From Asanoa ishikariensis (lineage in GTDB: Bacteria; Actinomycetota; Actinomycetes; Mycobacteriales; Micromonosporaceae): a stretch of 64,000 bases of DNA. The stretch is taken from NCBI RefSeq assembly GCF_900107455.1, contig NZ_FNQB01000001.1:2790001-2854000 (forward strand), in the 5' to 3' direction. Of the stretch, positions 29,256 to 48,027 are shown in pieces. The position numbers were made by a program, and so were the translations under genes. The stretch's first letter is position 1. Each line of letters opens with the position of its first letter. A model generated the notes under the pieces. It worked only from the letters and a program-made list of their open reading frames with translations, had not been told where the DNA came from and did no database searches.

Positions 29256-29372
29256 CCCATCTGCGCCGAAGCGGGCTAGCATCGAGTTCCGGGTCCCGGG
29301 CTTGGCTGGCGCGCGGGCGCTCTCGTGGTGTTACTCAGCAATGGAGTGAGATCGATCCGAGTCCGTCGGCCC

Positions 29373-29549
29373 GTCGCGGCGTCGGCCGAGATCGCGTTCG
29401 TCTCGGCCGCCAGGGAAGGCGAGCGCCTGACCGCGACCGCCGTCGAGCGGCACCGCGCGGGCAAGTCCGGAATCTACGACGTCACAGTCCGCTGCGGCGA
29501 CCGCCTGCTGGCCGAGTTCCGCGGCCTGAGCCGCACGCTCTCAGGTTGA
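29373..29549 (+). pseudogene. Truncated copy of the 3' end of paaI
   Basis: The frame encodes the last 58 residues of a hot-dog thioesterase and matches the C-terminus of intact PaaI at 37605-37991 in all but about five residues (shared: FVSAAREGERLTATAVERHR). Nucleotide identity is roughly 90 percent by eye. Homology starts abruptly at 29373; upstream sequence is unrelated and the N-terminal half with the active site is missing. The orientation is opposite to the intact gene 8 kb away. A frame from 29325 could be translated but lacks the catalytic part, so I call it a remnant. Confidence 0.85.
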
Positions 29550-31626: not shown

Positions 31627-31946
31627 GCCCGTGATCCTCGATGGTGATCGCCGTCGGCGCCACCCGGGTCCCGATGGCAGCCGGCCGATCCCGGCCCACA
31701 CGCGGGACAGGCACGGGTCGTCGGCGGAGTCGGTGGGCCGACCACCTTCGCGGCGGCCTGTAGGTCGGGCGAGGCTGTGCACACCGTGGCCCGTCCCATA
31801 AACAGTTTTGACGTTACGAGTCGTCGACGGCTGTTAACGGCACTGCCGGTGCGGGGCCGCCGCTTCTAGGTTCGGCGGCACCCCTTCGTGGTCGGTGTCG
31901 TCCGGACCCGGCCGCGAAATGGGTATCTCTTGGGAGGAGAGAAGCC
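31627..31946. promoter_or_regulatory. Divergent intergenic region with candidate promoter for the subtilisin gene
   Basis: 320 bp between the SDR start and the TTG start at 31947. TTGACG at 31808-31813 and TGTTAA at 31832-31837, 18 bp apart, make a plausible plus-strand promoter in a locally AT-richer patch. GGGAGGAG at 31932-31939 is the subtilisin ribosome site. No open frame here looks real. Confidence 0.45.
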
Positions 31947-33887
31947 TTGCGCCACAAACTGACCCCCCTCGGCGTCGCCGGCCTCGTCGTGGCCGCCGCC
32001 GTGCTGGGTTTCGGCGGCCCGGCCAGCGCCGATCCCAGCTCACCCCTCCGGTACGCCGACAGCCCGAACGCTGTTGCCGGCCGCTACATCGTCGTCCTCA
32101 AGGACACCGCGGCCGACGTCGGTGGCAGGGCCCGTGACCTCAGCGCCCGCTTCGGCGGGCAGACAAGGCACCTCTACACGGCCGGCTTCCGCGGCTTCGC
32201 CACGGCGATGTCCGAGCAGCAGGCGCTCAAGCTGGCCGCCGACCCGGCCGTCGCGTCGGTCGAGGCGGTGCAGCGCATCGGTGTGCTGGACACGCAGAAC
32301 AACCCGCCCAACTGGGGTGACGACCGGATCGACCAGGCGAGCCTGCCGCTGAACCAGGCGTACACCTATCCGGCCAACCCGGGTCAGGGTGCGACGGTCT
32401 ACGTGCTGGACACCGGTCTCAACGCCAGCCACGTCGACTTCACCGGGCGCGTCAAGCAGGGCACCGACATGGTCGACAGCGACAGCAACCCCGCTGACTG
32501 CCATGGCCACGGTACGCACGTGGCCGGCACCGCTGTCGGCACCAGCTACGGTGTGGCCAAGAAGGCGAGCGTGGTGGCCGTACGCGTGCTGAACTGCCAG
32601 GGCAGCGGCACCAACGACGACCTGATCGCCGGTATCAACTGGGTGCGCACCAACGCGCAGAAGCCGGCGGTCGTCAACTACAGCATCGGGTGCCAGAGCC
32701 GGTGCAGCAGCCAGGCGATGGACAGCGCGGTGTCGAGCCTGATCTCGTCCGGCGTGCAGTTCGTCCAGGCGGCGGGCAACTCCTCCGACGACGCCTGCTA
32801 CTACAGCCCGCAGGCGGTCGCGGCGGCGGTCACGGTCGGCAACACCGCGAGCTCCGACGCCCGCAACAGCAGCAGCAACTACGGCACGTGCCTGGACATC
32901 TTCGCGCCGGGTACGAGCATCGTGTCGGCCTCGTACTCCAGCAACACCGGCAGCGCGACGATGACCGGCACCTCGATGGCCTCGCCGCACACGGCCGGCG
33001 CGGCGGCCGTCTACCTTGGACTCAACCCCAGTGCGACACCCGCTCAGGTACGGGACGCGCTCGTCAACAACGCCACCACCGGCAAGGTGACGAGCCCCGG
33101 GACCGGGTCGCCGAACCGGCTGCTCTACACGGGCTTCATGAACGGTGGGACCAACCCGAACAACCCGTCGGTCACGAACCCGGGCAACCAGAGTACGGCC
33201 GTCGGTGCGTCCGTGAACCTCCAGTTGCAGGCGTCCGGCGGCACCACGCCGTACACGTGGAGCGCTTCTGGTCTGCCCGCGGGTCTGTCCATCGGCTCCT
33301 CGACGGGGCTGATCACGGGTAGCCCGACCACGGCCGGCACGTCCAACGTGACCGTGACGGTGCGGGACAACGCGGCGCGGACCGCGACGGCCACGTTCAC
33401 CTGGACGGTGACCTCCGGTGGTGGCGGTTGCACGCCGGCGCAGGTGGTCGGCAACTCCAGCCTGGAGAGCGGCACGACGCCGTGGTCGTCCAACTCGGGC
33501 GTGATCGGTGCTTGGTCTTCTTATGGGTACCCGGGTCGCACCGGCACCCGTAGCGCCTGGCTCGGCGGTCAGGGTCAGAGTCACACGGACTACATCTCGC
33601 AGTCGGTGACGATCCCGGCGTCCTGCACGAGCGCCGTGCTGCGGTACTGGACGCGGATCACGACGGCCGAGAACGACGGTCAGGTCTGGGACCGGCTGAC
33701 GGTGACGCTGGGCAGCACGACGGTCGCCTCCGCGACCAACCTGAACGCCTACTCGTCCTATGTGGAGAAGGTGGTCGACGTCAGCCAGTTCCGCGGGCAG
33801 ACGGTGACCCTGCGATTCAACGGGGTCGAGGACCAGTCGCTGCAGACAAGCTTCGTCATCGACGACGTGACGCTCAGCGTGTCCTGA
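31947..33887 (+). CDS. Secreted subtilisin-like serine protease (S8) with Ig-like and jelly-roll domains
   Basis: 646 residues. The TTG start at 31947 has GGGAGGAG 7 nt upstream. A signal peptide ([19 protein letters not shown]) covers residues 1-28. An inhibitor I9 propeptide runs about 47-115 (GRYIVVLKD). The S8 catalytic domain (130-395) has Asp155 (VLDTGLN), His188 (HGTHVAGT) and Ser343 (GTSMASPH), with four or more cysteines suggesting disulfides as in aqualysin/proteinase K types. A putative Ig (He_PIG) domain lies at 405-490 ([19 protein letters not shown]), and a C-terminal beta-jelly-roll at 497-646. It is a secreted endopeptidase. A perfect 13-bp hairpin follows the stop. Confidence 0.96.
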
Positions 33888-33895
33888 GGGTGTGT

Positions 33896-33925
33896 GCTGG
33901 GAGTGGGATCACTCCCACTCCCAGC
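33896..33925. terminator. Perfect 13-bp hairpin shared by convergent genes
   Basis: GCTGGGAGTGGGA (33896-33908) and TCCCACTCCCAGC (33913-33925) are exact inverted repeats around TCAC. It lies 9 bp after the subtilisin stop and covers the stop codon and last codons (RWEWE) of the convergent XRE regulator, so it can stop transcription from both sides while being partly coding. Confidence 0.8.
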
Positions 33926-34847
33926 GCATGCCGACGATGCCGGGCGGGACGTCCGCGGCCACGAGATGAGCGCCGTGCGTCGACCCGATCCAGACTTCGC
34001 GTACGCCCTGGTCGGGCGCGTGCAGCCCACGACGCTCGAAGCGATGGCAACGAGCCGGCACGGCGTCGTGGTCGAACTGCACCTGGAGCACGTACTCGCC
34101 GACGGGCGTGGAGAAACCGTGGTAGTAGTTGTCGGTGGCGACGGTGGAGTTGCTCCCGAACTCGTACTCGATGAACGCGGTGTCGCCCTGAGCCAGCATC
34201 CGGTCAAAGATTATTTCGGTCGCCAGGAGCCCGGTCCCGGGGTCGGACCGCACCCGCCCGATGCGACAGTTCCGCCGCGGATGCACGCTGACGGGCGCGC
34301 CCGGGTCGTCGGTGTGAAAGATCCCGACGGTCCGGGAGACGCGGTCGATGTTGGCCCGGAGCACCTGCCGGCAAACAAGCCCACGCTCCTGCCTGTCAGG
34401 CCCGACCAGGTAGAGGTCGTGCATGCTGACGCGGCTGAGCTCGTGGTACATCCAACGATCGAGCTCACTCATGATTTTGGAGACGCTGGCCCCGTTCTCG
34501 AAGAGCCGGTCGATGTCGATGGTGCCTGGGGCTTGGTTGAGCCAACGGCCTCTGGGGCGGCGGGGACCGAGTTGGGCGATCAGTGACTCGGCGGGCAGGT
34601 TCAGGATCTCTTCCATGAGCCGCACGGCCCGCATGGACTCGGGCCGCTCGGGCCGGCTGCGACCCCGTCGCCAGTAGCTGAGGGTCGCGAGGCTGACGCT
34701 GACGCCGGCGGCGGACAGTCGCGTCTGGATCTCCTCGGGCCGAATACCCCGATCCTCGATGGCCAGATGCAGAGCAGCGGAGAACGGCCCGGTCCGCAGC
34801 GCATGCGCCAGGTCCCGGCCGACGGTCTGGGATCGAGCCTTTTCCAT
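33909..34847 (-). CDS. XRE-like helix-turn-helix regulator with large C-terminal domain
   Basis: 312 residues. Residues about 20-95 look like an HTH domain: ALHLAIEDRGIRPEEIQTRL, SLATLSYWRRGRSRPERPES and a following helix MRAVRLMEEILNLP. The remaining 215 residues are a mixed alpha/beta region containing DLYLVGPDRQERGLVCRQVL and a beta-rich end (GEYVLQVQFDHDAVPARCHRFERRG in part) that could be a ligand-binding domain; I do not recognise the family. The ATG is at 34847. It lies 76 bp downstream of the HTH-OtsA reading frames on the same strand, so it may be co-transcribed with them. Confidence 0.7.
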   Translation of the reverse strand: MEKARSQTVGRDLAHALRTGPFSAALHLAIEDRGIRPEEIQTRLSAAGVSVSLATLSYWRRGRSRPERPESMRAVRLMEEILNLPAESLIAQLGPRRPRGRWLNQAPGTIDIDRLFENGASVSKIMSELDRWMYHELSRVSMHDLYLVGPDRQERGLVCRQVLRANIDRVSRTVGIFHTDDPGAPVSVHPRRNCRIGRVRSDPGTGLLATEIIFDRMLAQGDTAFIEYEFGSNSTVATDNYYHGFSTPVGEYVLQVQFDHDAVPARCHRFERRGLHAPDQGVREVWIGSTHGAHLVAADVPPGIVGMRWEWE

Positions 34848-34923
34848 GGCTGAGTATCACCAGCACCAGGGTGTGGCCGCTAGTCATGCGCAGAGGCCAG
34901 CGCCGGCGACTCACGCGGGGAGG

Positions 34924-36018
34924 TCACAGCGTGGGTCCCAGGCCCCGGCCCGTGGTGGCGTCCGACCGCTGGATCCGCTGAGGGGGCACGTCGGCTCTAT
35001 GGAGGAGTTTCAAGAACGAGTTGGCCCACGTCGGCAGGTCGTGACTTCGTAAATGCGATCGCATCGCATCCATGCGGCGTCGTTGTTCGGCCGCGCTCAT
35101 GGAAAGCGCAACCAGCACGGCCTGTTTCAGTTCGTCGGCGTCGTTTGGATTGACGATAAGAGCCTCAGCCAGTTCCGCCGCTGAGCCAGCGAACTCACTC
35201 AAGATCAGCACTCCGCTGTTATCGAGCCGGCTGGCTACGTACTCCTTGGCGACCAGATTCATTCCGTCCCGCAGCGGTGTTACGAGCATGATGTCTGCTG
35301 CGGCGTACAGGGCGACTAGTTCCTCCACCCCTGGCAGCTGATTCGTATAGTGCACGACAGGGCTGCCCGCACGTCCGTACACGCCATTGAGGTGGCCTGC
35401 CAGGCGTTCCACCCGTTGGCGCAGCCTCGCGTACTGGCCGACCTGCTCGCGGGTCACCGTTCCAACTTGGATGAATATCGCGTCCTCTGGTCGGATCTTG
35501 CCCTCCTCCAGGAGCTCGCCGTATGCACTCAAGCGTTGCTCGATGCCTTTCGTGTAGTCCAAGCGATCGACACTGAGCAGGATTTTGCGGCGTCCGCCAA
35601 GCTCCCCGCGGATCTGTTCTGTCCGGCGACGGACGCCTTCGCGACGTACCAGCCGCTCCACGTCGTCGACGTCGACTGATATCGGGAAACTGTCCGCGAC
35701 TACTTGGCGACCGTCTACGAGTACGACGTTCCCACTCCTTTGAAGCCGGAGCCGCTGCCGCACCAGTTGTAAGAAGTTCTGTGTCGACAGACTTTGTTGG
35801 AATCCCACGACATCCGCCCCGAGTATTCCTCGGAGGATGTCATCTCTGCATGGAAGTTGCGCGAACACCTCGGGCGCTGGTAGTGGGATGTGGAGGAAGA
35901 AGCCGATCCGCAGATCGGGACGACGGTGTCTAACCATCTCGGGGAGCAACTGAAGGTGATAGTCGTGTATCCAGACCGTCGCATTGGGGCGCGGCGAGAT
36001 CAACAACCTTGTCGGCAA
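34924..36018 (-). CDS. otsA: Trehalose-6-phosphate synthase, catalytic part (frameshifted from upstream half)
   Basis: 364 residues from a TTG at 36018. It covers the part of OtsA (GT20) from WIHDYHLQLLPEM to the C-terminus and keeps the key residues: HDYHL, GFFLHIPLP, the phosphate/UDP-binding SVDRLDYTKGIE (Arg and Lys), LRDGMNLVAKEYVA and LSEFAGSA. OtsA makes trehalose 6-phosphate from UDP-glucose and glucose 6-phosphate in the cytoplasm and is normally 460-500 residues. The missing 110 residues lie in the overlapping upstream frame, one base out of register. The TTG has no good ribosome site, so independent initiation is unlikely. It is a pseudogene, a frameshifted gene or a sequence error. 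Confidence 0.8.
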   Translation of the reverse strand: MPTRLLISPRPNATVWIHDYHLQLLPEMVRHRRPDLRIGFFLHIPLPAPEVFAQLPCRDDILRGILGADVVGFQQSLSTQNFLQLVRQRLRLQRSGNVVLVDGRQVVADSFPISVDVDDVERLVRREGVRRRTEQIRGELGGRRKILLSVDRLDYTKGIEQRLSAYGELLEEGKIRPEDAIFIQVGTVTREQVGQYARLRQRVERLAGHLNGVYGRAGSPVVHYTNQLPGVEELVALYAAADIMLVTPLRDGMNLVAKEYVASRLDNSGVLILSEFAGSAAELAEALIVNPNDADELKQAVLVALSMSAAEQRRRMDAMRSHLRSHDLPTWANSFLKLLHRADVPPQRIQRSDATTGRGLGPTL

Positions 36019-36751
36019 ACTTCTGGTTCAATCTTCGATTGAGATCACGCCATTCCGTGCGGAACTCCGGTTGCTCGATCGAGTAGTGGTACAGCGGCCA
36101 GATGCTTGAGCTGCAGTAACCCTCGTAATGTCGGGTGACGTCCGACGGGGCGGCCTGGACGGTTTCGACAGCCAAACCCTGAGGAAAGGGCGGCGAAGGG
36201 TCAGCGGTCTCGTCCGGTGTTAGGCCAAGCCATGCGCCGTTCAGGTTCATAACCAGTCTGCTGAGGATCGGTGCGGATCCGAATATCTTCCACTCGGGCT
36301 GGCTGGCAACACCAACCGTCGTCGTCCGTGTCGCGAGAGGCAATCGGTAGCTCACCATCAGGAACGGATATGACGGTGGCGTCGTTGTTGGCGACGAACT
36401 CGCCTGTGTCGCGCCGTTCTGTTGACGGTCGTGCGGGCCCGATTCGGCCGAGCGGGCGGCCGTCCAGAGCGTATGGAAGCGCCCGACATCGCCTCCCAGT
36501 TGTAACACGATCAGCCTGAGCGTCGGCCACTTCGGCACCTGGGGTCCCTTGAAGACATTGTGGACGGTCGTGTAGCTCGGGCCGTGTACCCCAGTCCCAC
36601 GCGCGATCTGCCGTAGACCCGGCTCACCGGCCTGGAGGTGCAGCTCGTGTAACTGGTCGAACAGCTCGCGGACCGGTCCGGACGCCGTCGGTTCTCGCTT
36701 CAATGCCAACTGTTGCCTCCACGTGCCAGCCGTGGCGTTCAATTTTGTCAA
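35930..36751 (-). CDS. HTH domain fused to N-terminal part of OtsA (frame ends after a shift)
   Basis: 273 residues. Residues 25-100 are an actinobacterial XRE-like HTH (VRELFDQLHELHLQAGEP, LRQIARGTGVH, TVHNVF, WPTLRLIVLQLGG). A 35-residue linker leads into an OtsA N-terminus: MVSYRLPLA, GAWLGL, HYEGYCSSSIWPLYH and FADKVVDLAAP. The final 18 residues after LAAP are out of frame. OtsA normally has an SPGGL-type loop for glucose 6-phosphate; here it reads SAPILSRL, so the paired glycines are absent, and the usual SNR is SYR. Activity is therefore doubtful even if the frame is restored. The start could also be an internal TTG (residue 15). Confidence 0.75.
   Translation of the reverse strand: MTKLNATAGTWRQQLALKREPTASGPVRELFDQLHELHLQAGEPGLRQIARGTGVHGPSYTTVHNVFKGPQVPKWPTLRLIVLQLGGDVGRFHTLWTAARSAESGPHDRQQNGATQASSSPTTTPPSYPFLMVSYRLPLATRTTTVGVASQPEWKIFGSAPILSRLVMNLNGAWLGLTPDETADPSPPFPQGLAVETVQAAPSDVTRHYEGYCSSSIWPLYHYSIEQPEFRTEWRDLNRRLNQKFADKVVDLAAPQCDGLDTRLSPSVAPRDG
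35986..35989 (-). other. Single-base frameshift site (C run) between the HTH-OtsA halves
   Basis: On the minus strand the sequence reads GCGCCCCAATGCG. Removing one C joins LAAP directly to NATVWIHDYHL, which matches OtsA proteins without a gap. The site is a four-C run at a CCC proline codon, where sequencing errors, mutation and +1 ribosomal slippage can all occur. Confidence 0.85.
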
Positions 36752-37490
36752 GAGTCAACGCGTGATCACCAGTGGTTGCGCTCGGCAAGATCCGCTTGTG
36801 TCCGATGTGGTTCATCTTTGGGGTGCCTCGTCATGCGAACCGACTTTGAACGCTTGGAGGTCAACAATTAGCGCAAGCATTCAACTAGGGAGGCCCGGAT
36901 GACTAACATGACGCCGTGGTGGATATGGTTGGTTCCTGCTGCCAAGCCGCTCGCAAGCTTCGTGCTGTGTCTTCTGTTTTCGCGCTTGCACCAGCACACG
37001 CGGCGTTGTTGGCCAACGCCCGACGATTACTTTGCGCCTCGCGGCGGGCCACGACGTCCGTCAGTCGCATTAGTCCGCGCGGCGGCCTCGGCTCGTTCTA
37101 TGCGAAGAGCAACACCGCACGGCCTTGCATCCAGCGCAGACACACCGAGAGCAAAGTCGAGTCGAAGGCGTCGTGTCATCAGGAAGTCTTGGGCAGCAAC
37201 GGGCTGCCCACAGCGGCCTGAATGTCCCGGGGGCCGCGGCGCCACGAGGTAATGCCTGGTCTACGGGGCATCGGCAGGGCGGCTCGGGTGGTAGGCCAGG
37301 CGCGTGGGCAGCTCAACAGATCGGGTGGGCGGCGTGCCCTGCTGACGTCGCCCATTGTTCGCGCGAAGGTGCCTTGCCCGAACACGACCTCGTCTTCTAT
37401 CTAGCGGGGCAGGCGAGCTGAGGCTCAGGCAGCCACCCGAATGACCTGCGCCCTGACGTCGGGTCCCTTCGTCAGTCGACGCCGTCAGAA
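36752..37490. other. Poorly coding, lower-GC intergenic stretch
   Basis: About 740 bp between the HTH-OtsA start and the degenerate paaI tail. GC is visibly lower than the window average, especially 36720-36960. No homologous coding frame was seen apart from one doubtful short frame at 36899. The stretch marks the inner right edge of the segment bracketed by paaI tails. Confidence 0.6.
36899..37252 (+). CDS. Doubtful small membrane-anchored ORF
   Basis: 117 residues. The ATG at 36899 has a good ribosome site, AGGGAGG, 5 nt upstream. The first 30 residues include a hydrophobic helix (WWIWLVPAAKPLASFVLCLLF). The rest is Arg/Pro/Ser-rich and looks unselected, and third positions are not strongly GC-biased as in real genes nearby. 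It is probably a short leader-type or decayed gene. Confidence 0.3.
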   Translation: MTNMTPWWIWLVPAAKPLASFVLCLLFSRLHQHTRRCWPTPDDYFAPRGGPRRPSVALVRAAASARSMRRATPHGLASSADTPRAKSSRRRRVIRKSWAATGCPQRPECPGGRGATR

Positions 37491-37587
37491 CGAGAGAGTC
37501 CGGCTCAGGCCGTGTCACTCGGCCACCAGGCGTTCACCGATTTGTAGGCCGGACTTGCCCCGCGCAGTGGCGTTCGACCACGGTCGA
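37491..37587 (-). pseudogene. Degenerate second copy of the paaI 3' end
   Basis: Plus-strand sequence from GAGAGAGTCCGGCTCAGGCC to CGTTCGACCACGGTCG parallels the last part of intact paaI (37609 onward) with scattered substitutions and a deletion of about 23 bp in the middle. It lies 17 bp downstream of the intact paaI stop, in the same orientation, forming a tandem of gene ends. Confidence 0.75.
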
Positions 37588-37604
37588 CCGTGCCCACCCC
37601 GCGG

Positions 37605-37991
37605 TCACGCGGAGAGGGTGCGGCTCAGGCCGCGGAACTCGGCCACCAGGCGGTCGCTGCAGCGGACCGTGACGTCGTAGATGCCGGACTTGCCCGCGCG
37701 GTGCCGCTCGACGGCGGTCGCGGTCAGGCGTTCGCCCTCGCGCGCTGCCGAGACGAAGAAGATGTCGGCCGACGCCGCGACCGTGACCGCGCCCGGGTAG
37801 TTGCACGCGCCGGCGAAGGCCGAGTCGGCCAGCAGGAACACAAAACCGCCGTGGGCGATTCCGTGGCCGTTGACCATCAGGTCCGTCACCGTCATCTCCA
37901 GCACGGCGCGGCCGGGCTCGAGCTTCACGACCGACATCCCGAGCGACTGCGAAGCCCTGTCCCGGGCGAACATCTCGGCGGCACCGTCCAT
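37605..37991 (-). CDS. paaI: Hot-dog thioesterase, PaaI type
   Basis: 128 residues, full length for PaaI. Hydrolyses (hydroxy)phenylacetyl-CoA and related aryl-CoA esters in the phenylacetate pathway. The active-site stretch is VNGHGIAHGGFVFLLADSAF: HGIAHGG is the HGG motif and the Asp of LADSAF is the catalytic acid. It begins MDGAAEMFARDRASQSLG. No other paa gene is in the window, so its role may be CoA salvage. Two partial copies of its 3' end exist in this window. A GATAACGTTATC palindrome lies 41 bp upstream of the start. Confidence 0.93.
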   Translation of the reverse strand: MDGAAEMFARDRASQSLGMSVVKLEPGRAVLEMTVTDLMVNGHGIAHGGFVFLLADSAFAGACNYPGAVTVAASADIFFVSAAREGERLTATAVERHRAGKSGIYDVTVRCSDRLVAEFRGLSRTLSA

Positions 37992-38031
37992 GCCCGCACC
38001 CTATGCGCATTCAGGCATCAAGGACAGCGCG

Positions 38032-38043
38032 GATAACGTTATC
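38032..38043. promoter_or_regulatory. 12-bp palindrome identical to the core of the LacI-family operator
   Basis: GATAACGTTATC is identical to the centre of the 16-bp palindrome at 39503-39518 in front of the sugar-uptake operon. Here it stands upstream of paaI and beside remnants of a LacI gene end, so it may be a relic of an older operon or a second working site. Confidence 0.6.
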
Positions 38044-38050
38044 GCCAATT

Positions 38051-38258
38051 CGGCCCGCAGGCCGATCTCATGCCGGCAGGCAGGTCGTCCGAACCCAGGC
38101 GATGAACTCAAGCGAGAGCCGGCCAGCCTCATGCCGGCGGGGAGTTTGCCAAGTCGGCCCGCAGGCCGGTCTCATGCCGGCGGGGCAGGTCGCCCGAACC
38201 GGGGCGATGAGTTCGAGCGGGAGCCGGCCAGCCTCATGCCGGAGGGGAGTTCGCCCGA
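38051..38258. repeat. Two tandem ~104-bp units resembling the 3' end of the LacI gene
   Basis: The unit starts CGGCCCGCAGGCC at 38051 and again at 38155. Each contains, on the minus strand, a segment matching the end of the intact lacI-type gene (38402-38455): codons for ELIA followed by a Gly/Pro-rich end and a TGA. For example GGCGATGAGTTCGAGCGGGA parallels GGCGATGAGCTCGACCGGGA in the gene. The units look like decayed gene ends. The rest of the gap to 38399 shows no gene. Confidence 0.7.
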
Positions 38259-38399
38259 GCTCCGCTCCTCCCGGGCCGGCGGCCGGGGTCAGAGGCCCGC
38301 GCCGTCAGTTCAGCCAGCCGGTCTCGAGCCAAGGCCAGCGCCAATGCGAGCACGTCCGCGACGAACCAGTCGCGGACGGCCGCGGGCACGCTTGAGGGC

Positions 38400-39422
38400 T
38401 CACACCGGAGGCGGCAGCTCGCCCGAGCCCCGGGCGATGAGCTCGACCGGGATCGTCACCGTCTGGACCGGGCGGCCTGGGTCCGCGGCCCGCGCCGTCA
38501 GCAGGTCGATCGCCGTCCGACCGATCTCCGCGCTGTTCTGCGCGACCACCGTCAACGCCGGCCGCAGGATGTCCGCCAGCGTGAAGTCGTCGAACCCGAC
38601 CAGTGCCAACCGCCCCGCATCAGCACCGAGATACCGCAACGCCTCGATCGTCGTCGCCACGTTTCCGGTGATCAGCGCCGTCGCAGGCGAGGGCCCGGAC
38701 AACACAGAAGCCAGAGCCGAAGCCACCCGCGACGAGGTCACCACCCCCGGGTGGACCATCCCCGACAGCGGCCCACCGCTGGCCGCCACGCAGGCCCGGA
38801 ACGCCGCTGCCCGCTCGCGACCAGTGAAGATCCGCTCGTCGTCCCCGATGTAGGCGATCCGCCGGTGACCATGAACGGAAAGCTGCCGGTACGCCATCCC
38901 TATCCCGGCGGCATTGTCCGACAGCACGGCATCGGCCTCGACCCCACCGCACGGGCGGTCGACCGCCACCAGCGGCAGACCGCCGGCGAGCTCGGCCGAC
39001 AGGTAGTCGTGTGACGTCCCGATCGGCTCGATGACGATCCCGTCGACGCGGCGGCCGCACATCGACATGACGGCTTCGCGCTCGCGGGCCTCGTCATCTT
39101 CCGTCGACATCGCCAGTACGGCCAGGCCGTGGGAACGCGACGCCATGTCGACCGCGGACAGCACCGGGTGTGCGTCTGCCAGGTTGCGTACCGCTGCCCC
39201 GATCGTGCCGCTCGTCCCGCGCCGTAGCTGCTGGGCGCGCTCGTCCGGTGCGTAGTCAAGCGCGGAGATGGCCGCCTGGACCCGGCTGACCAGATGCGCA
39301 CCGACCGTGGGATCGGAGTTGACCACCCTGGACACGGTGCGCAGCGCTACACCGGCCTCGCGGGCCACGTCCCGCATGGTCGGGCGTTTCCGCCTCACCC
39401 CGCCGCCCAGCCGATCGGTCAT
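38400..39422 (-). CDS. LacI-family transcriptional repressor of the adjacent sugar operon
   Basis: 340 residues. N-terminal HTH and hinge: TMRDVAREAGVALRTVSRVVN (positions 15-35), then YAPDERAQQLRRG with the hinge region. The periplasmic-binding-like core follows (GIVIEPIG, VAVDRPCGGVEADAV, RRIAYIGDD, TALITGNVATTIEAL, LALVGFDDFTLADIL). It should bind a sugar and release DNA. The ATG at 39422 has AGGAGG 8 nt upstream. It is divergent from the transporter operon; the palindrome at 39503-39518 lies between and probably gives both autoregulation and operon control. Confidence 0.95.
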   Translation of the reverse strand: MTDRLGGGVRRKRPTMRDVAREAGVALRTVSRVVNSDPTVGAHLVSRVQAAISALDYAPDERAQQLRRGTSGTIGAAVRNLADAHPVLSAVDMASRSHGLAVLAMSTEDDEAREREAVMSMCGRRVDGIVIEPIGTSHDYLSAELAGGLPLVAVDRPCGGVEADAVLSDNAAGIGMAYRQLSVHGHRRIAYIGDDERIFTGRERAAAFRACVAASGGPLSGMVHPGVVTSSRVASALASVLSGPSPATALITGNVATTIEALRYLGADAGRLALVGFDDFTLADILRPALTVVAQNSAEIGRTAIDLLTARAADPGRPVQTVTIPVELIARGSGELPPPV

Positions 39423-39472
39423 CGCCTGATCCTCCTCTTCGGACGCTCCTGCCGAGCATCCCCATCACACTC

Positions 39473-39500
39473 TTGACACCGGAGTGAAACTTCCTATGCT
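39473..39500 (+). promoter_or_regulatory. Consensus-like promoter of the sugar-uptake operon
   Basis: TTGACA at 39473-39478 and TATGCT at 39495-39500 are 16 bp apart. The predicted start of transcription falls at about 39507, inside the operator palindrome, so repressor binding would block initiation. Confidence 0.75.
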
Positions 39501-39502
39501 TC

Positions 39503-39518
39503 GGGATAACGTTATCCC
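39503..39518. promoter_or_regulatory. LacI-family operator, perfect 16-bp palindrome
   Basis: GGGATAACGTTATCCC is a perfect palindrome with the central CG typical of LacI/GalR operators. It sits immediately after the -10 box and 48 bp before the TTG start of the binding-protein gene, and 81 bp upstream of the regulator start on the other strand. Confidence 0.85.
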
Positions 39519-39565
39519 ACACTGATCAACTTGACTAGCCCAACCCCTGTCCCCAGGAGGACCCC

Positions 39566-40843
39566 TTGATACGGAAGCCGCTGCTCGCGGCAGGCGTCGC
39601 CGGTCTCCTCGCCCTCACCGCGGCCTGTGGAAGCGGCGACGGCGGAGGGAAGGAAAGCGGCGAGACCGCGCTGACCTACCTTGTCTTCGAGACCCCGAGC
39701 CTCGACGCGAAGTTCTGGGACGACTCGATCACCGCCGCCACCACGCAGACCCCCGGCGTGAAAATCAACAAGATCGTCGCACCGAGCACCGACCGCGACG
39801 GGTACGCCAAACAGCTCCAGCAGTCGGGCCAGTTCCCCGACCTGCTGCAGTCGATCACGCCGTCCAACTTCGTCGGCGCCGGCCTCCTCAAGCCGTACGA
39901 CAAGACCTGGATCGACGCCAACTTCCTGCTGCCCTCGGCCAACTCGCTCAAGGGCGAGGTCTACATCCCGCCGACCAACTCGCAGATCGTCCCGCAGGTC
40001 TACTACAACAAGAAGCTCTTCACCGACGCCGGCATCACCACAGCACCGAAGAACTGGCAGGAGTTCCTCGACGCCTGCGCCAAGCTCAAGGCCAAGGGCA
40101 TCAACCCGATCGAGCTAGGCGGCGCCGACCCGTTCGCGGCGTCGATGCCGCTCGTCGGCATCATCTCCGCCGACATCCTCGGCAAGAACAAGAACTGGCT
40201 CCAGGACCGCTACGCCGACAAGGTGAAGTTCGCCGACGCCGACATGGTCACCGCCGTGAACAAGTACCGCACCCTCGTCACCAGCGGCTACTTCGACAAG
40301 GGCGCCCTCGGCGTCAAGTACGCGGACTCCATCACCCGCTTCACCACAGGCAAGTCCGCGATGTATCCCATGGGCAGCTGGTTCCTGGGCTCCGTACCCA
40401 AGGACACCGCCGACAACTTCGGCTCGTTCCCCTGGCCGACCGACAGTGGCGACGTCGTCGTGCCGTTCGTCGGCGGCGGCTCCATGGCCATCTCCGCCAA
40501 GGCCAAGGACACCGCGCTCGCCGAGAAGTTCGGCCAGGCCTGGTCGCTCAACCCGGCCAACCTCAAGGCGCTCATCGAGACCGACGGCGCGTTCCCGATG
40601 ATCAAGGGTAAGACCCTCGAGGACTACAACGTCACGGTCACGAAGGTCTTCGAGGAGTCGTACGCCTACGTCGGCCAGGACAACAACAAGGTCAGCGCGA
40701 TCGGCTGGGCGACCAACGACGACGCGCTCCCGGCCGGGCTCAACGACGCCTTCTACGCCGCCGCACAGGCCCTGTTCACCAAGGACGACGTGGCCGGCGA
40801 GCTCAAGAAGCTCGACGAGGCATGGAAGACCGCCGCACAGTGA
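39566..40843 (+). CDS. Sugar ABC transporter substrate-binding lipoprotein (CUT1)
   Basis: 425 residues. The TTG start at 39566 has CAGGAGG 5 nt upstream. Lipoprotein signal with lipobox LTAAC (Cys21). The mature part is an extracellular solute-binding family 1 protein: VYYNKKLFTDAGI, NWQEFLDACAKLKAKGI and FTTGKSAMYPMGSWFLG are typical. It captures an oligosaccharide or sugar outside the membrane and hands it to the two permeases. First gene of a five-gene operon under the LacI-type repressor; the gene stop overlaps the first permease start. Confidence 0.95.
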   Translation: MIRKPLLAAGVAGLLALTAACGSGDGGGKESGETALTYLVFETPSLDAKFWDDSITAATTQTPGVKINKIVAPSTDRDGYAKQLQQSGQFPDLLQSITPSNFVGAGLLKPYDKTWIDANFLLPSANSLKGEVYIPPTNSQIVPQVYYNKKLFTDAGITTAPKNWQEFLDACAKLKAKGINPIELGGADPFAASMPLVGIISADILGKNKNWLQDRYADKVKFADADMVTAVNKYRTLVTSGYFDKGALGVKYADSITRFTTGKSAMYPMGSWFLGSVPKDTADNFGSFPWPTDSGDVVVPFVGGGSMAISAKAKDTALAEKFGQAWSLNPANLKALIETDGAFPMIKGKTLEDYNVTVTKVFEESYAYVGQDNNKVSAIGWATNDDALPAGLNDAFYAAAQALFTKDDVAGELKKLDEAWKTAAQ

Positions 40844-41721
40844 GGAAAAGGAATTCCGGCGAGCGGGGCCTGGCCCTGCTCGCCGCCCTCGCTCTCGGGC
40901 TCTACCTGGTCTTCCTCGTGCTGCCGTTGCTGCTGAGCCTGCGCAGCAGCTTCACCAACGAGAACCCGCTGAAGGCACAGAACGACTTCATCGGGCTGGC
41001 CAACTACACCGAGATGGCCGGCGACGACCAGCTCCGGGCCAGCCTGACGTTCACGCTGATCCTCGCGTTCGGCGTGACCATCGCCGCCAACGCGCTCGGC
41101 GTCGGCTTCGCGCTGCTGCTCAACCGGACGAGCCTGAGCTACCGCGTCATGCGTACCGTCGCGTTCCTGCCCCAGGTCCTCTCGGGTGTGATCGTGGCCT
41201 TCGTCTGGCAGACGATCCTGACCCAGAACGGCCTGCTGAACACCGCACTCGTCAACCTGCGGATCCTCGACGAGCCGTACCCCTGGCTCGGCAGCCCGCA
41301 CGCCGCCCTGTTCTCCATCGGCCTCGTCGTGACCTGGGTGATGAGCGGCTTCACCACGGTCGTCTACCTGGCTGCCCTCCAGAGCATCCCGCTCGAGCTC
41401 CACGACATGGCGAGCCTCGACGGCGTCCGCGGCACGCAACGGTTCCGCAAGATCACCTGGCCGATGCTCGCACCGGGCACCACGATCAGCGTCACCATCT
41501 CGCTGATCACCGTGCTGAAGCTCTACGACATCATTACCGTGCTCACCGGCGGCGGCCCGGCCAACTCCACCCAGTCGACCGCCCTCTACATCGTCAAGCT
41601 GGCGTTCACCAGCGACCGGGTCGGCTACGCCAGCGCCGTCGCGATGCTCCTGCTCGGGATCTCCGCGCTGGTCGCCCTCACCGTGACCGGCGCCCTGCGC
41701 CGCCGGGAGGTCTCCCTATGA
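40840..41721 (+). CDS. Sugar ABC transporter permease, MalF/UgpA type
   Basis: 293 residues from the GTG at 40840, which overlaps the lipoprotein stop (GTGA); an in-frame ATG at 40822 would overlap by 22 bp and is the alternative. Six membrane helices are apparent, starting with GLALLAALALGLYLVFLVLPLLL. The EAA loop that contacts the ATPase reads IPLELHDMASLDGVRGTQRF. It pairs with the next permease. No ATPase gene is in the operon, so a shared MsiK-type ATPase elsewhere is expected (known for CUT1 systems in actinomycetes). Confidence 0.94.
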   Translation: MRKRNSGERGLALLAALALGLYLVFLVLPLLLSLRSSFTNENPLKAQNDFIGLANYTEMAGDDQLRASLTFTLILAFGVTIAANALGVGFALLLNRTSLSYRVMRTVAFLPQVLSGVIVAFVWQTILTQNGLLNTALVNLRILDEPYPWLGSPHAALFSIGLVVTWVMSGFTTVVYLAALQSIPLELHDMASLDGVRGTQRFRKITWPMLAPGTTISVTISLITVLKLYDIITVLTGGGPANSTQSTALYIVKLAFTSDRVGYASAVAMLLLGISALVALTVTGALRRREVSL

Positions 41722-42629
41722 CAACCATTTCCAGGGATACGCGCGACCGCCCGACCGCAGGCGGAAGGAGCACGCTGACACCCCCGCCGCACACCCGGCC
41801 CCGTCGGCGGCTCAGCACCAGGCTGAGAGTCGCAGTCGCGGCCGCCGTCACGCTGGTCTTCGTCGCGCCGATCTACCTGATGCTGGTCAACGCGTTCAAG
41901 CCGCAGGAGAAGATCCTCGCCAACCCGCTCGCGCCGCCCTGGCCGCCGACGCTCGACAACCTCACCAAGGCGCTGACCCGGCCGGACAACCTGATCCCGC
42001 TCGGCCTGCGCAACTCGCTGATCGTCGCGGTGATCTCGGTGGCGCTGATCGTCCCGCTCGGCTCCGCGTTCAGCTTCTACATCTCCCGGAAGAGCGGAAA
42101 GACAAAGGCGGTCATCCTGCTCGTGCTGTCCGCCGGTCTGATGATCCCGCCGCAGGTGATCCTGTTGCCGACCATCCGGATCCTCACCTGGGTCGGCCTC
42201 GACCACAGCTACCCGGGCCTGATCCTGGCGAACCTCGGCGGCGGCTACCTGTCGTTCGCGGTCTTCGTCTACGTCGGCTTCATGCGCTCGGTGCCCGACG
42301 AGATCATCCAGGCGGCCCGCCTCGACGGCGCCGGCGGCCTGCGGATCTGGTGGCAGATCGTCATGCCGCTGGTCCGCCCGGCCACCGCCACCGTGGTCAT
42401 CTTCCTGACGCTGTGGATCTGGAACGACTTCCTCAACCCGCTGTTCATCCTCGGCCCGCTCCAGGGCCAGACCATCACGACCGGCCTCTACCTGACGATC
42501 GGACAGTACTCAGTGGACTACGGCCAACTCTTCGGCATCATGTTCCTGGCCGGCGTCCTGCCGGTGATCGGCTATCTCACGGTGCAGAAGCAGTTCGTCG
42601 CCGGCCTGACCTCGGGCTCGGCCAAGTGA
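41718..42629 (+). CDS. Sugar ABC transporter permease, MalG/UgpE type
   Basis: 303 residues from the ATG at 41718, overlapping the previous stop (ATGA). A basic N-terminal tail of about 35 residues is followed by helices beginning VAVAAAVTLVFVAPIYLMLV. The EAA loop is VPDEIIQAARLDGAGGLRIWW followed by IVMPL. The C-terminal QKQFVAGLTSGSAK is the usual family ending (FVxGLTxGAVK). It is coupled by a GTGA overlap to the following glycosidase-like gene. Confidence 0.95.
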   Translation: MTTISRDTRDRPTAGGRSTLTPPPHTRPRRRLSTRLRVAVAAAVTLVFVAPIYLMLVNAFKPQEKILANPLAPPWPPTLDNLTKALTRPDNLIPLGLRNSLIVAVISVALIVPLGSAFSFYISRKSGKTKAVILLVLSAGLMIPPQVILLPTIRILTWVGLDHSYPGLILANLGGGYLSFAVFVYVGFMRSVPDEIIQAARLDGAGGLRIWWQIVMPLVRPATATVVIFLTLWIWNDFLNPLFILGPLQGQTITTGLYLTIGQYSVDYGQLFGIMFLAGVLPVIGYLTVQKQFVAGLTSGSAK

Positions 42630-45241
42630 CCGGGGTTCCCGCGCTCGACGACGTCGCGGGGGAGTGGGTCGCCGCCGGCGACCTGGGCCACCTGCCGTCG
42701 CTGCGCAACCAGCGCGGCCAGGCGCACGTCAACCACGACCTCACGAGCGTCTCCTGGCTGGCCGCACCGCCGTTCGCGCTGGGCTACCACACCGGTGTGT
42801 TGCGGGTCGACGGCGTCGTGCCGGGCGTCCAGCACTACCGCTGGAAGCCCTGGGGCACCCGGCGCACCTACCGCGACGCGCACGTGTCGGTGGCCACGGA
42901 CACGAGCCTCGGCTACGACGCGGACCGGCTGCTCTGGCGGGTCGAGGTGACCAACACCCGGGCGGAGCCGGCCACCGTCGAGCTGAGCCAGGACCTGTTC
43001 GCGCCGGTCGGACACAGCGAGACCGGGTGGGGCTGGCTGCACACGGTGCCCTGGAACGCCTCCGGCGAGCACGACTACCACGCGCTGGAGCGGATCCGGG
43101 ACACCACCCGACCGGGCGCGCAGGGTGCGCCGTACCTGCTCGGGCCCGGCCCCCGCCGGCTGCGGCTCGGCCGCCCGCGGCCGCCGGGCATCCAGCGGGA
43201 CGAGGACAGCGCGCCGATGCTGCTGGAGTACGAGCTGCCCCGGCACGTCAGCGCGGACTGGGTCTACCCGCACACGAGCTCCGTCCGCGGCACCGTGCGC
43301 GGCCTGACCACCAGCACCGGCCTCACCTTCGCCGGCCCGGCGGTGCTCGACGACGGCGTCGAACTGGCGCTGGACGCGTTCGAGCTGGTCCCGGGCACCG
43401 AACTGGAGCTCGAGTTCCGCACCACCGACCCGGACCACGACGGCGTGCTGCTGACCCACGGCAACCACCCCGACTCGCTGCAGCTCGGCGTCTCCGGCGG
43501 CCGGCTCTGGCTGGGCATCTGCGGCGAACGCGAGACCGCACAACGCCCGCTCGTAGCCGGCCGCTGGCACCGCGTCCGCGTCACCGTCGACGCGCACCAG
43601 GCCCGCCTCGTCCTCGACGGCGCCGAGGTGGCCCGCACCGGCCACTGGACCCGTCCGAGCCGTTGGCGGTCCACGGTGGACCGGGACAGCGTCACGGTCG
43701 TCGACACCAGGTCGAGCGCCCGCGCCACCTACACCTTCGCCGTACCCCCGGACGAGCTGTCACCGCACGGTGCCGGCGCCCGCGCGACCTGGCGGCTCGC
43801 GCTCGCAGCCGGCGAGACGGCCGTGGTCGGCTTCGCCCTCGCCTGGGGCACCGAAGCCACTGCGCCGGCCGCCACCGGGCTGGACCAGGAGCTTTCGGAC
43901 ACGGCCGACGCGTGGCGCCGCCTCTGGGCGCACGCCTTCACCCCCGGCAACCCCGACTTCAGCGGCCACCTGCCCACCCTGCGCACGGACCACGACGACC
44001 TCGCCCGCGCGTACTACATGGGCGCGCTGCTCGTGCTCTACATGCGCAACATCCGGGTCGGCCGCACCGGGCCGGTGTTCCTCACCGGCGGCCCGCGGCT
44101 CGGCGCCACCACGACGTTCTTCTGGGACCACACCGAGTGGAGCCGGATGTACGCCATGCTCGACCCGGCCGGCCTGCGCGCGTGGCTGCTGGCGGGGCTC
44201 GCCGGCCCGTACCACGAGTCCTTCGGGTACGACGTGCGCGGCGGCGGACCGCTCGGCAACTACTACATCTCCAACGAGTACGCGCTGTTCCGGCTGATCG
44301 AGCACTACGTGGGCGTGACCGGCGACGTGGCGTTCCTGTCCGAGTCGGCCGGCGGGCGGACGGTGCTCGAGCACGTCGAGCGCCTCGCCTACGGGGTCGC
44401 CGGCCGGCTCGGCACCAAAGAGGGGCTCGCCGACTTCGGCCCCGACGCGTGGCGGGTACTGGAGTGCGTGCCCAACTACGTCGACGCCATGGCCTCGTTC
44501 AACGCGGCCTACGTCGGCATGCTCCGGTCGTACGCGGCCCTGCTGCGCTTCCTCGGAGGCCGGGACGCCGACGCCGAGCGCGCAGACGCCGACGCCGGTG
44601 GGCTCGCCAAAGCGGTGCTCGACCTCTACGCGGGCGACGGCCGCTGGGCGATCCTGCACCCGGACGGCCGCGACACCATCGGGCACGTCCTGGACTTCGG
44701 CCTGGTCGCGGCGGAGCTGGCCGGCGACCTGACCGCGGACCAGCGCGCCGAGATGGTCACGTTCGTGGTCGACAAGCTGCTGGCCGGCCCGTGGCTGCGG
44801 GCGCTGGCGGCCGACGACCCGATCGCGCCGTTCTCCGACCGGCCGGACCACGGTGCCGGCGGGGCGTTCGGCGCCTGGCCCGGCGTCACCGCGTACGGGC
44901 TGGCCAAGCTCGGCCGCCCGGACCTCGCGGCCGGCGTGCTCGGCCGGACACCACGGGCCGCCTCCGGTGGCCTGTGGGGACAGGCGATGGAGATCTTGAC
45001 AGGAGACGCCGAGCCGCGCGTGCGCGTGGCCGGCCGCGGCGTCGCCAACCGGGACTCCATCGCGGGGGCGGCCATCGCCGAGGCGGTCATCGCCGGCCTC
45101 TTCGGCGTGGAGCCCGGCTACACCGCACTGCGTTGCTCCACCCCCCGTTCCGATCAGGTCACCGCACCCGTAGGCACGCTGGAGAACCTCAACCTGCGTC
45201 CGGCTCCCGAGCCGGTGGGAACGGTGGCCCCACCGCACTAG
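42626..45241 (+). CDS. Cytoplasmic glycoside-hydrolase-like protein with LamG-like insert
   Basis: 871 residues, GTG start at 42626 overlapping the permease stop. No signal peptide, so it should act on imported sugar. The N-terminal 200 residues form a beta-sandwich. About 240-350 resembles a concanavalin/LamG module (LELEFRTTDPDHDGVLLTHG, GRWHRVRVTVDAHQARLVLDG). The C-terminal 420 residues look like an (alpha/alpha)6 toroid: ARAYYMGALLVLYMRN, TTTFFWDHTEWSRMYAMLDP, YYISNEYALFRLIEHYVG and GPDAWRVLECVPNYVDAMASFN, with Trp/Asp/Glu residues placed as in GH63/GH65/GH95-clan enzymes. I cannot assign a known GH family. Catalytic acids are probably among D of FWDHTEW and E of VLECVPN (inference). Confidence 0.75.
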   Translation: MTGVPALDDVAGEWVAAGDLGHLPSLRNQRGQAHVNHDLTSVSWLAAPPFALGYHTGVLRVDGVVPGVQHYRWKPWGTRRTYRDAHVSVATDTSLGYDADRLLWRVEVTNTRAEPATVELSQDLFAPVGHSETGWGWLHTVPWNASGEHDYHALERIRDTTRPGAQGAPYLLGPGPRRLRLGRPRPPGIQRDEDSAPMLLEYELPRHVSADWVYPHTSSVRGTVRGLTTSTGLTFAGPAVLDDGVELALDAFELVPGTELELEFRTTDPDHDGVLLTHGNHPDSLQLGVSGGRLWLGICGERETAQRPLVAGRWHRVRVTVDAHQARLVLDGAEVARTGHWTRPSRWRSTVDRDSVTVVDTRSSARATYTFAVPPDELSPHGAGARATWRLALAAGETAVVGFALAWGTEATAPAATGLDQELSDTADAWRRLWAHAFTPGNPDFSGHLPTLRTDHDDLARAYYMGALLVLYMRNIRVGRTGPVFLTGGPRLGATTTFFWDHTEWSRMYAMLDPAGLRAWLLAGLAGPYHESFGYDVRGGGPLGNYYISNEYALFRLIEHYVGVTGDVAFLSESAGGRTVLEHVERLAYGVAGRLGTKEGLADFGPDAWRVLECVPNYVDAMASFNAAYVGMLRSYAALLRFLGGRDADAERADADAGGLAKAVLDLYAGDGRWAILHPDGRDTIGHVLDFGLVAAELAGDLTADQRAEMVTFVVDKLLAGPWLRALAADDPIAPFSDRPDHGAGGAFGAWPGVTAYGLAKLGRPDLAAGVLGRTPRAASGGLWGQAMEILTGDAEPRVRVAGRGVANRDSIAGAAIAEAVIAGLFGVEPGYTALRCSTPRSDQVTAPVGTLENLNLRPAPEPVGTVAPPH

Positions 45242-45252
45242 GAGGACACCCC

Positions 45253-48027
45253 GTGCCAACCCGACCGTCCCGCCGGGTACTCGCCGGAGCCGTCATCGCC
45301 TCGGTCGTCGCCGCCGGGCTGAGCGTCACCGCCAGCCCGGCCGGCGCCGCGGCACCCACCCCCGCCCAACAGTGGGCGGCGGTCCAGTCGCTGCTCGCGA
45401 ACATCAAGGGCCGTTGGACCGACCAGTCCTATGTGAACTCCATCGTCAACGGCATGCCCAGCACCGCCCTGCTCGGCAACGGTGACATCGGCGTCACCTC
45501 GTCCGGCAGCACCGGCGTCAAGACGTTCCTGGTGTCGAAGGGCAACTTCTGGCGCGGCAACCCCGGCCCGGCGGTCGCGCCGGTCGGCGGGGTGACGCTG
45601 ACCGCGGTCGGCGGGGGCGGCGGCTCGACCAACCTCGCCCTCGGCGCCACCGCCACCGCGACCAGCTCGCACCCGTCGTTCCCGCCGTCGCGGGCCGTCA
45701 GCGGCCAGTGGGGCTCCGGCTACGAGGGCTGGGTCTCCGCCGTCGGTAAGCCACAGACCCTGACCCTCGACCTCGGCAGCAGCAAGACGTTCACCCGCTA
45801 CCTCGTCCGGCACGACAGCGCCGCCCGGCCGAACGAGACGGCCAACAACACGAAGAACTTCCAGGTGCTGACCTCGACCGACAACCAGAACTGGTCGGCC
45901 TGGGACACGGTCACCGACAACACGGCCGCGGTCACCGACCGCACGCCCGGGTCGCGTACCGCCCGCTGGGTCCGGCTCGTGGCCAGCGAGCCGACCCAGG
46001 GCACGACGGCCGACTCGCAGCAGAACCCGCGGGCCCGGATCGGGCAGTTCGAGCTGTACGGCGCGGGCGGCGGGCCGGGCGGCCCCGGCGGCACGTTCGT
46101 CGAGGAGCAGAACATCCTCAACGGCGAGGTCGACACCACCATGAGCCTCGGCGGGCAGCCGGTGGTGCTCAAGACCTGGGTCGCGGCCAACGACAACCTG
46201 CTGGTCACCCAGGTCCGCGGGACCGGCAGCACCGCGGTCCGCCTGGAGGCGCAGACCTGGTCGGGCGCGACCTCGCCGATGGGCGGTTTCACCCAGACCG
46301 CCGGCGTCTCCGGCAGCACCACCTGGGCCGCCCGCGCCACGCCGACCGGGTCGCGCTGGGTGTCCCGCGCGGCGCTGGCCAGCCGGCTGGTCGGTGCCAC
46401 CCCGTCGACGCCGACCGCCGCGGGCAACACCGCCCGGTTCCAGTTCGACCTGGCTCCCGGGCAGACGCTGCGGCTGGTGACGGCGGTCGCGGGCGGCGGT
46501 GCCAACAACGCCGACCCGGCCCCGGGCGCGCGGTCGCTGGCCGAGGCGCAGACCGGCACCGCGCTCGACGGGCTCTACACCGGGCATCTCGACTGGTGGA
46601 AGCAGTACTGGCTGCGGTCCTACGTGGACCTCGACGACGACGTGCTGGAGCGGTTCTACTACGCGGCTCAATATTTCCTGGGGTCGGCCAGCCGCAACGG
46701 CAAGACCGCACCCGGGCTGTACGGGCTGTGGACCACCAAGGACGACCCGTACTTCTCCGGCGACTACCACCTCAACTACAACTTCGTCGCCAACTTCTAC
46801 GGTGCGTACTCGTCGAACCGGGCCGACCTGGCCATGCCGATGATCGACGCCGTCATCTCGTACCTGCCCGAGGCCCGCCGTCGCTCCACCCAGGAGCTCC
46901 AGCAGGTCAAGTCCGACTACGTGACACCGAGGTTCGGCACGGGTGGCATCGCCGGCGGCGTGCTGTTCCCGGTCGGGATCAGCCCGTTCGGCGGCACCCC
47001 GGACGGCAACTACTGGCAGCAGGTGAGCAACTCGCTGTTCAACGTGGTCGAGTTCATCGCCTACTGGGACTACACCCGGGACCGCACGTACCTGCAGGCG
47101 AAGGCGTACCCCTTCATGAAGGAGGTCGCGACGTTCTTCAGCCGATGGATGGAGTACGACGCGGCGACCGGCCGCTACACCACCTGGGGCGGCCCGCACG
47201 AGGGCACCTGGGCGCGCAACCCGAGCCTCGACGTCGGCATACTGCGGTATCTCCTGACGTCGCTGCTCGCCGCCAGCACCGAGTTGGGCCTCGACGCGGG
47301 TTCCCGTCCGCTCTGGCAGCAGATGCTCAACGGTCTGCCGCCGATAGCCACGACGACCTACAACGGCAAGTCCGTGTACGCGTTGGGCGACCCGGGCACG
47401 GTCTCCGACGGCCGGGCCATCCGCCCGGGCGACAACACGGTCAACCTGGAGTTCATCCACCCGGGCGAGGGCCTCGGCCTGAGCTCGTCGGCGGCCGACC
47501 GGCAGAGAGCGATCGACACGCTGGACGCGATGAACTCCTGGGGCCAGGACAACAGCTTCCCGAAGGTGTTCACCCAGGCGGCCCGGGTCGGCTATCCCGC
47601 GCAGAGCCTGATCGACAAGCTGAAGGCCCAGATCACCGCCAAGTCGGACCCGAACCTGCGGATCCGGGACCAGTGGCACGGCCTGGAGAAGTCCGGCGCC
47701 ACCGAGGCGGTCAACAACCTGCTGCTCCAGAGCGACGACGGCGTCGTCCGGGTCTTCCCGGTCTGGCCGGTGTCGAAGAACGCCAGCTTCGTCAACCTCC
47801 GCGAGAAGGACGCGTTCCTGGTCTCCAGCGCACTGTCCGGCGGCCGGGTGTCCTATGTCGACGTCACCAGCGAGGCGGGTCGGCAGCTCCGCCTGCGCAA
47901 CCCGTGGCCGGGCAGCCCGGTCGTGGTCACCCGCGTCGGCGGCGGCACGGTCACCCCGACCGTCAGCGGCGACGTCATCTCGTTCGCCACGCAGGCGGGA
48001 GCGACCTACACGGTCACCTCGCCGTAG
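45253..48027 (+). CDS. Secreted GH95-like glycosidase with inserted F5/8-type C (discoidin) domain
   Basis: 924 residues. GTG start with AGGAGG 7 nt upstream. Signal peptide AGAVIASVVAAGLSVTASPAGAA (part) to about 34. The N-terminal super-sandwich begins with the GH95-like ALLGNGDIGVTSSG, then is interrupted by a discoidin domain at about 130-275 (TNLALGATATATSSHPS, IGQFELYG) in a Gly-rich frame. The (alpha/alpha)6 part has GLYGLWTTKDDPYFSGDYHL followed by NYNFVANFYG, which matches the GH95 H-x-N-x-N pattern, and GGPHEGTWARNPSLDVGILR. GH95 enzymes remove alpha-L-fucose or L-galactose from glycans; here the sugar is uncertain. It probably releases the sugar that the operon imports. Confidence 0.8.
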   Translation: MPTRPSRRVLAGAVIASVVAAGLSVTASPAGAAAPTPAQQWAAVQSLLANIKGRWTDQSYVNSIVNGMPSTALLGNGDIGVTSSGSTGVKTFLVSKGNFWRGNPGPAVAPVGGVTLTAVGGGGGSTNLALGATATATSSHPSFPPSRAVSGQWGSGYEGWVSAVGKPQTLTLDLGSSKTFTRYLVRHDSAARPNETANNTKNFQVLTSTDNQNWSAWDTVTDNTAAVTDRTPGSRTARWVRLVASEPTQGTTADSQQNPRARIGQFELYGAGGGPGGPGGTFVEEQNILNGEVDTTMSLGGQPVVLKTWVAANDNLLVTQVRGTGSTAVRLEAQTWSGATSPMGGFTQTAGVSGSTTWAARATPTGSRWVSRAALASRLVGATPSTPTAAGNTARFQFDLAPGQTLRLVTAVAGGGANNADPAPGARSLAEAQTGTALDGLYTGHLDWWKQYWLRSYVDLDDDVLERFYYAAQYFLGSASRNGKTAPGLYGLWTTKDDPYFSGDYHLNYNFVANFYGAYSSNRADLAMPMIDAVISYLPEARRRSTQELQQVKSDYVTPRFGTGGIAGGVLFPVGISPFGGTPDGNYWQQVSNSLFNVVEFIAYWDYTRDRTYLQAKAYPFMKEVATFFSRWMEYDAATGRYTTWGGPHEGTWARNPSLDVGILRYLLTSLLAASTELGLDAGSRPLWQQMLNGLPPIATTTYNGKSVYALGDPGTVSDGRAIRPGDNTVNLEFIHPGEGLGLSSSAADRQRAIDTLDAMNSWGQDNSFPKVFTQAARVGYPAQSLIDKLKAQITAKSDPNLRIRDQWHGLEKSGATEAVNNLLLQSDDGVVRVFPVWPVSKNASFVNLREKDAFLVSSALSGGRVSYVDVTSEAGRQLRLRNPWPGSPVVVTRVGGGTVTPTVSGDVISFATQAGATYTVTSP

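Follow-up and report, generated by a model that had tools for sequence, protein, structure and literature searches.

A minus-strand gene in the window, the 64,000-nucleotide stretch of Asanoa ishikariensis DNA analysed here, encodes an N-terminal HTH domain followed by an OtsA-like GT20 enzyme. It carries a single lesion, a one-base change of frame, retains active-site residues of the enzyme and is absent from the loci of relatives with which it was compared (Table 1). With a probability of roughly two in three, the sequence evidence points to a rare accessory HTH-enzyme fusion gene, probably foreign to the genus, that was recently broken or contains a sequence error.

Table 1. Features of the HTH-OtsA gene and its locus, in window coordinates
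Feature	Position	Strand	Basis
Likely ribosome-binding site GGAGG and start codon TTG	36720-36716; 36709-36707	minus	sequence; gap of six bases; homologue starts nearby
N-terminal HTH domain	36440-36709	minus	actinobacterial family, partners here NB-ARC, AAA/STAND, WD40 and DnaB_C
Linker, ~25 residues	36365-36439	minus	sequence
Acceptor-side lobe (N-lobe) of OtsA, which diverges fast; G158 at the position of the catalytic Gly	35987-36364	minus	profile and alignments
CCCC run, site of the one-base frame change	35986-35989	minus	sequence, read-through, profile
Remaining GT20 domain, including nucleotide-sugar residues	34924-35985	minus	Pfam and alignment
End of the zero-frame product: out-of-frame tail and stop	35930-35986	minus	sequence
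Stretch to which ten loci of relatives show no DNA match	34868-37486		DNA comparison

The HTH and the N-terminus of OtsA are encoded by the ORF 36751-35930, and the catalytic part runs on to 34924, one base out of frame. Pfam GT20 recognises both pieces above its cut-off of 32.5 bits (residues 133-254 of the first on profile positions 6-139, 40.4 bits; residues 10-340 of the second on positions 139-472, 371.5 bits), and the two matches abut at position 139, which bears out the arrangement described in the earlier note. The second frame had been given as 36018-34924; its continuation to 34924 holds, but the TTG start at 36018 is no more than a product of mechanical ORF calling. Similarly, the proposed length of about 608 residues is that of a read-through with one four-letter step counted from 36751, but the likely start at TTG 36709, which is preceded by a Shine-Dalgarno site and lies near the point where several HTH homologues begin, shortens the protein to ~594 residues. 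The joined protein scores 428 bits against GT20, above the same cut-off, and the 608-residue version matches a profile built in the present analysis from the OtsAs of the host's family as one domain (residues 118-587, 597.5 bits). When the first region was compared with the OtsA profile frame by frame, positions 9-146 were matched in one frame and 145-173 in the next, the third being without match, so that one frame change suffices to explain the layout. Neither part contains an in-frame stop, and the openness of the frame exceeds chance, as 241 codons remained open in only 28 of 20,000 sequences simulated with a first-order Markov model of the gene's composition. The reading frame of the OtsA part is nevertheless not uninterrupted, since it shifts at the CCCC run. 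The linker has no in-frame ATG, GTG or TTG until Met132, within the first OtsA strand; the OtsA part thus lacks a separate ordinary start, and the whole reads as one gene.

By sequence similarity, the HTH is a member of an HTH_31-like actinobacterial family that is promiscuous in its partners. It shares 41-54% identity with 14 homologues. HTH_31 was matched by 10 of the 15 family members at E up to 0.1, and the window copy itself matched no HTH family in Pfam or NCBIfam at the same threshold. Searched against the PDB, the HTH profile found weak matches only, mostly to designed proteins, and the host genome contains one more, weak relative (E 4.2e-6). In four loci scanned with Pfam, the same N-terminal HTH family precedes an unrelated domain, namely NB-ARC and TPR (L010), AAA_16/NACHT-like (L016), WD40 (L068) or DnaB_C (L069); further partners were judged by eye. 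The partner in the window differs from these in being a glycosyltransferase of central metabolism. The range of partners of this HTH, here NTPase, WD40 and DnaB-like domains, thus extends to a central-metabolism enzyme with active-site residues retained. In L069 (G089), the family is joined to a DnaB-like helicase C-terminal domain scoring 136.9 bits.

The earlier note had called for a search for HTH-OtsA fusions in other genomes. No second fusion was found in the genomes searched from the class, the family and another order or in plasmids; these sets share genomes, and such searches may miss a fusion that has diverged. The N-terminal query was run against 61 genomes including the host's own (E 1e-3), 394 sampled genomes of the class (E 1e-19), all 354 genomes of the family (E 1e-17) and, among the matches listed, 391 sampled genomes of another order (E 1e-14). 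None of 14 plasmid records covered 80% of the query. A peptide-pattern scan of genome contigs returned 12 loci, all with Bacteroidota OtsA-type genes, and none of 31 pattern matches in viral contigs was confirmed. Among 1,932 ORFs of 141 loci, the HTH and OtsA profiles occurred jointly in five loci only, in each case in the window gene itself. Long matches extending upstream of OtsA in L012 and L138-L141 proved to be unrelated sequence; G101 and G958 are among the upstream-extending matches left out of this reading. No published HTH-OtsA fusion was found among the literature entries searched. Effectors of conflict systems include glycosyltransferase and HTH domains, and the available part of that survey (PMC7159879) does not name an HTH-OtsA fusion.

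The active site was assessed with residue numbers from the available part of PMC6879718, which were mapped through the alignment to M. thermoresistibile OtsA (PDB 5JIJ) and whose residue letters agree at the positions used. Fifteen contacts were selected, His168 and those that the source describes as conserved or as backbone contacts, and 14 of them are retained in the window protein: Arg18, Gly39, Tyr90, Asp144, His168, Arg286, Lys291, Arg324, Asp385, Gly386, Met387, Asn388, Leu389 and Glu393 (M. thermoresistibile numbering). The sole change, Gln146 to His, is also found in other aligned OtsA chains. Beyond these fifteen, Tyr145 and Arg384 are retained, and Arg35, the first loop Gly, His199, the allosteric Arg213, Leu319, Val363 and Arg365 are altered; the last three are mapped donor contacts that the consulted text of PMC6879718 does not term highly conserved. 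Gly39, described in the same source as absolutely conserved among functional OtsAs, corresponds to G158 in MAFFT, phmmer and profile alignments alike. The glycines of the glucose-6-phosphate loop had been thought replaced. The first of the pair is indeed Phe157, and the residues preceding it are altered too, but the catalytic Gly is present. Loss of both glycines was ruled out by the spacing of G158 to the Gly of GAW, which at 14 residues is the same as for the catalytic Gly in 5JIJ. In a predicted structural model a helix starts at residue 159, directly after G158, in a part of low confidence (pLDDT below 50 over residues 1-123, 137-161 and 179-229). The protein thus resembles 5JIJ in its two-lobe GT20 domain (425.2 bits) and its contacts, and differs from it by the N-terminal HTH, the diverged N-lobe, the Phe in place of the first loop Gly and the one-base frame change. 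A 738-residue OtsA-like protein from a Bacteroidales MAG (L056, 5989-8202) seemingly lacks the GG loop motif that its relatives have, as judged by eye.

Judged from these residues, the GT20 part very probably kept trehalose-6-phosphate synthase chemistry for most of the history of the gene. The idea of a sensing regulator made from a synthase had been based on the loss of the GG loop; this basis fails, and a still-working synthase is at least as likely. A catalytically dead sensor, in which the GT20 domain would only bind sugar ligands and control the HTH by analogy with ROK repressors, appears unlikely. ROK repressors are built on sugar kinases; like other enzyme-derived regulators, they join an HTH to a sugar-enzyme fold, but the window protein derives from another enzyme family and its catalytic residues look retained. 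Divergence does peak in the N-lobe, including the surroundings of the acceptor loop, as a dead sensor might lead one to expect, but the acceptor contacts Arg18, Tyr90, Asp144 and Arg324 and the catalytic Gly39, as mapped from the consulted part of the OtsA study, have kept equivalents.

The extent of this divergence was measured against 52 OtsAs of the family. Mean identity is 0.33 in the N-lobe and 0.56 in the rest, a ratio of 0.59 (largest 0.67); in none of 91 pairs of ordinary OtsAs that are about as identical in the C-part did this ratio fall below 0.81. Of the near-invariant positions, 24 of 49 are altered in the N-lobe against 26 of 150 in the rest. So strong a divergence may mean that the enzyme activity has been altered or lost. 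A tree of the later enzyme part placed the protein, without resolution, within the actinobacterial OtsAs; its end branch measures 1.28 changes per site (median 0.12), and the position of so long a branch is unsure. Preservation of the active site on this branch argues for long purifying selection, and the enzyme part was probably under selection for most of its history. Against NCBIfam trehalose_OtsA, the two pieces score 44 and 383.3 bits and the joined protein 442.9, below the equivalog cut-off of 564.85; the two ordinary OtsA genes of the host genome, which are without stops, also fall below it (535.3 and 501.0), and a Psychroflexus protein lies above (580.8). No relatives of the OtsA C-part closer than those of the family were found among 394 class genomes at E 1e-120, and no donor lineage for the gene was found.

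An old pseudogene, that is, an OtsA copy long in decay to which the HTH was joined by chance, might show such a fast N-lobe together with the frame break, the low G+C content and the rearranged neighbourhood described below, and the failure to find a homologous fusion would fit it as well. We regard it as improbable, since there is a single lesion in ~595 codons, 14 of the 15 mapped contacts survive on a branch of 1.28, a Shine-Dalgarno site stands ahead of the HTH and the linker lacks a start codon. Decay of the gene, as suggested earlier, is possible but then only as a late event, given that there is one lesion and that the active site has survived on a long branch.

The frame change itself had been proposed to be a programmed +1 slippage at a proline codon that tunes the yield of the full-length regulator. 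A proline tRNA at CCC could re-pair after a +1 shift inside CCCC. Beyond this run of four, however, nothing supports the proposal, which did not hold up and is now highly improbable. An in-frame CCC codon followed by C is ordinary nearby: eight neighbouring genes, 2,775 codons in total, contain it seven times, and the gene's own first part once more. The codon that follows is CAA, and the site itself has no stop, the first one in the zero frame lying 18 codons on. No stimulatory sequence or structure was seen by eye, and the genome and plasmid searches yielded no homologous fusion in which conservation of the slip site could be compared.

There remain a recent mutation and an error of one C in the sequence or assembly, in which case the gene would be intact and would encode the full HTH-OtsA protein. 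The latter is plausible but not favoured: the lone lesion lies within a homopolymer, everything else is open and the active site is retained, but the run is merely four bases long and the host assembly is 99.96% complete in 11 contigs. Moreover, seven conserved neighbouring ORFs, which were chosen as open ORFs (two more long mechanical ORFs matched partially and were excluded), align to those of relatives without a frame break, which favours a real mutation over a poor assembly. A recent mutation is therefore somewhat more likely than a sequence error at the CCCC run.

According to the reading that we favour, a recently broken or misread accessory fusion, the gene would have been acquired from outside the genus and would consist of an HTH of a promiscuous actinobacterial family, a short linker and an OtsA-like GT20 enzyme. 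Over most of the gene's existence, its product would have been a single protein of ~594 residues that combined trehalose-6-phosphate synthase chemistry with a capacity for DNA binding. The HTH might tether or regulate the enzyme; alternatively, closure of the two lobes on substrates might control DNA binding, and the GT20 part would make or sense trehalose-6-phosphate. The frame would change between the lobes either because a recent mutation has inactivated the gene or because the sequence contains an error. Should the break prove real, translation in the zero frame from TTG 36709 would yield a fragment of ~259 residues that comprises the HTH and most of the acceptor lobe and lacks the donor lobe. 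A more specific version, tentative and rather doubtful, is that of a working DNA-binding synthase in which the frame change is an error or very recent and the GT20 domain, by closing around its nucleotide sugar and glucose-6-phosphate ligands, controls the HTH; if true, one protein would both make and sense trehalose-6-phosphate. Intact copies, should they exist elsewhere, would allow a direct test of whether transcription control and trehalose metabolism are coupled in one protein.

The surroundings of the gene are consistent with a foreign origin. It lies inside a ~2.6-kb stretch of low G+C content (0.58-0.66 over 35001-37400), and GC3 at the locus is 0.69-0.77 compared with 0.85-0.95 in five neighbouring genes. 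The stretch lacking DNA matches was defined at E 1e-5 against ten loci (five same-genus genomes and G021), and on either side of it same-genus genomes match in DNA over the blocks 31797-34867 and about 37607-46000. From 37487 onward, the 3' end of a 4HBT thioesterase gene gives short DNA matches. This end occurs three times in the window: within the gene (37612-37781), inverted over 170 bases at about 29372-29541 (91%) and once more, over 48 bases, at about 37492-37539 (83%). Relative to the flank at 24-27 kb, the block 31797-34862 is inverted in G003 and G004 and has the window orientation in G005, and relative to the thioesterase gene G001 is ordered as the window. The block order thus varies among relatives, which indicates a rearrangement-prone place, and an inversion breakpoint specific to the host genome, which had been considered, was dropped in view of G005 and, on the thioesterase side, G001. 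Rfam gave no match over 33800-38000. The gene downstream (33909-34847, minus strand) encodes a 312-residue protein whose N-terminus looks XRE-like by eye and which has no Pfam or NCBIfam match; it is 86-96% identical in five same-genus genomes and has relatives in 23 of the 61 genomes including the host.
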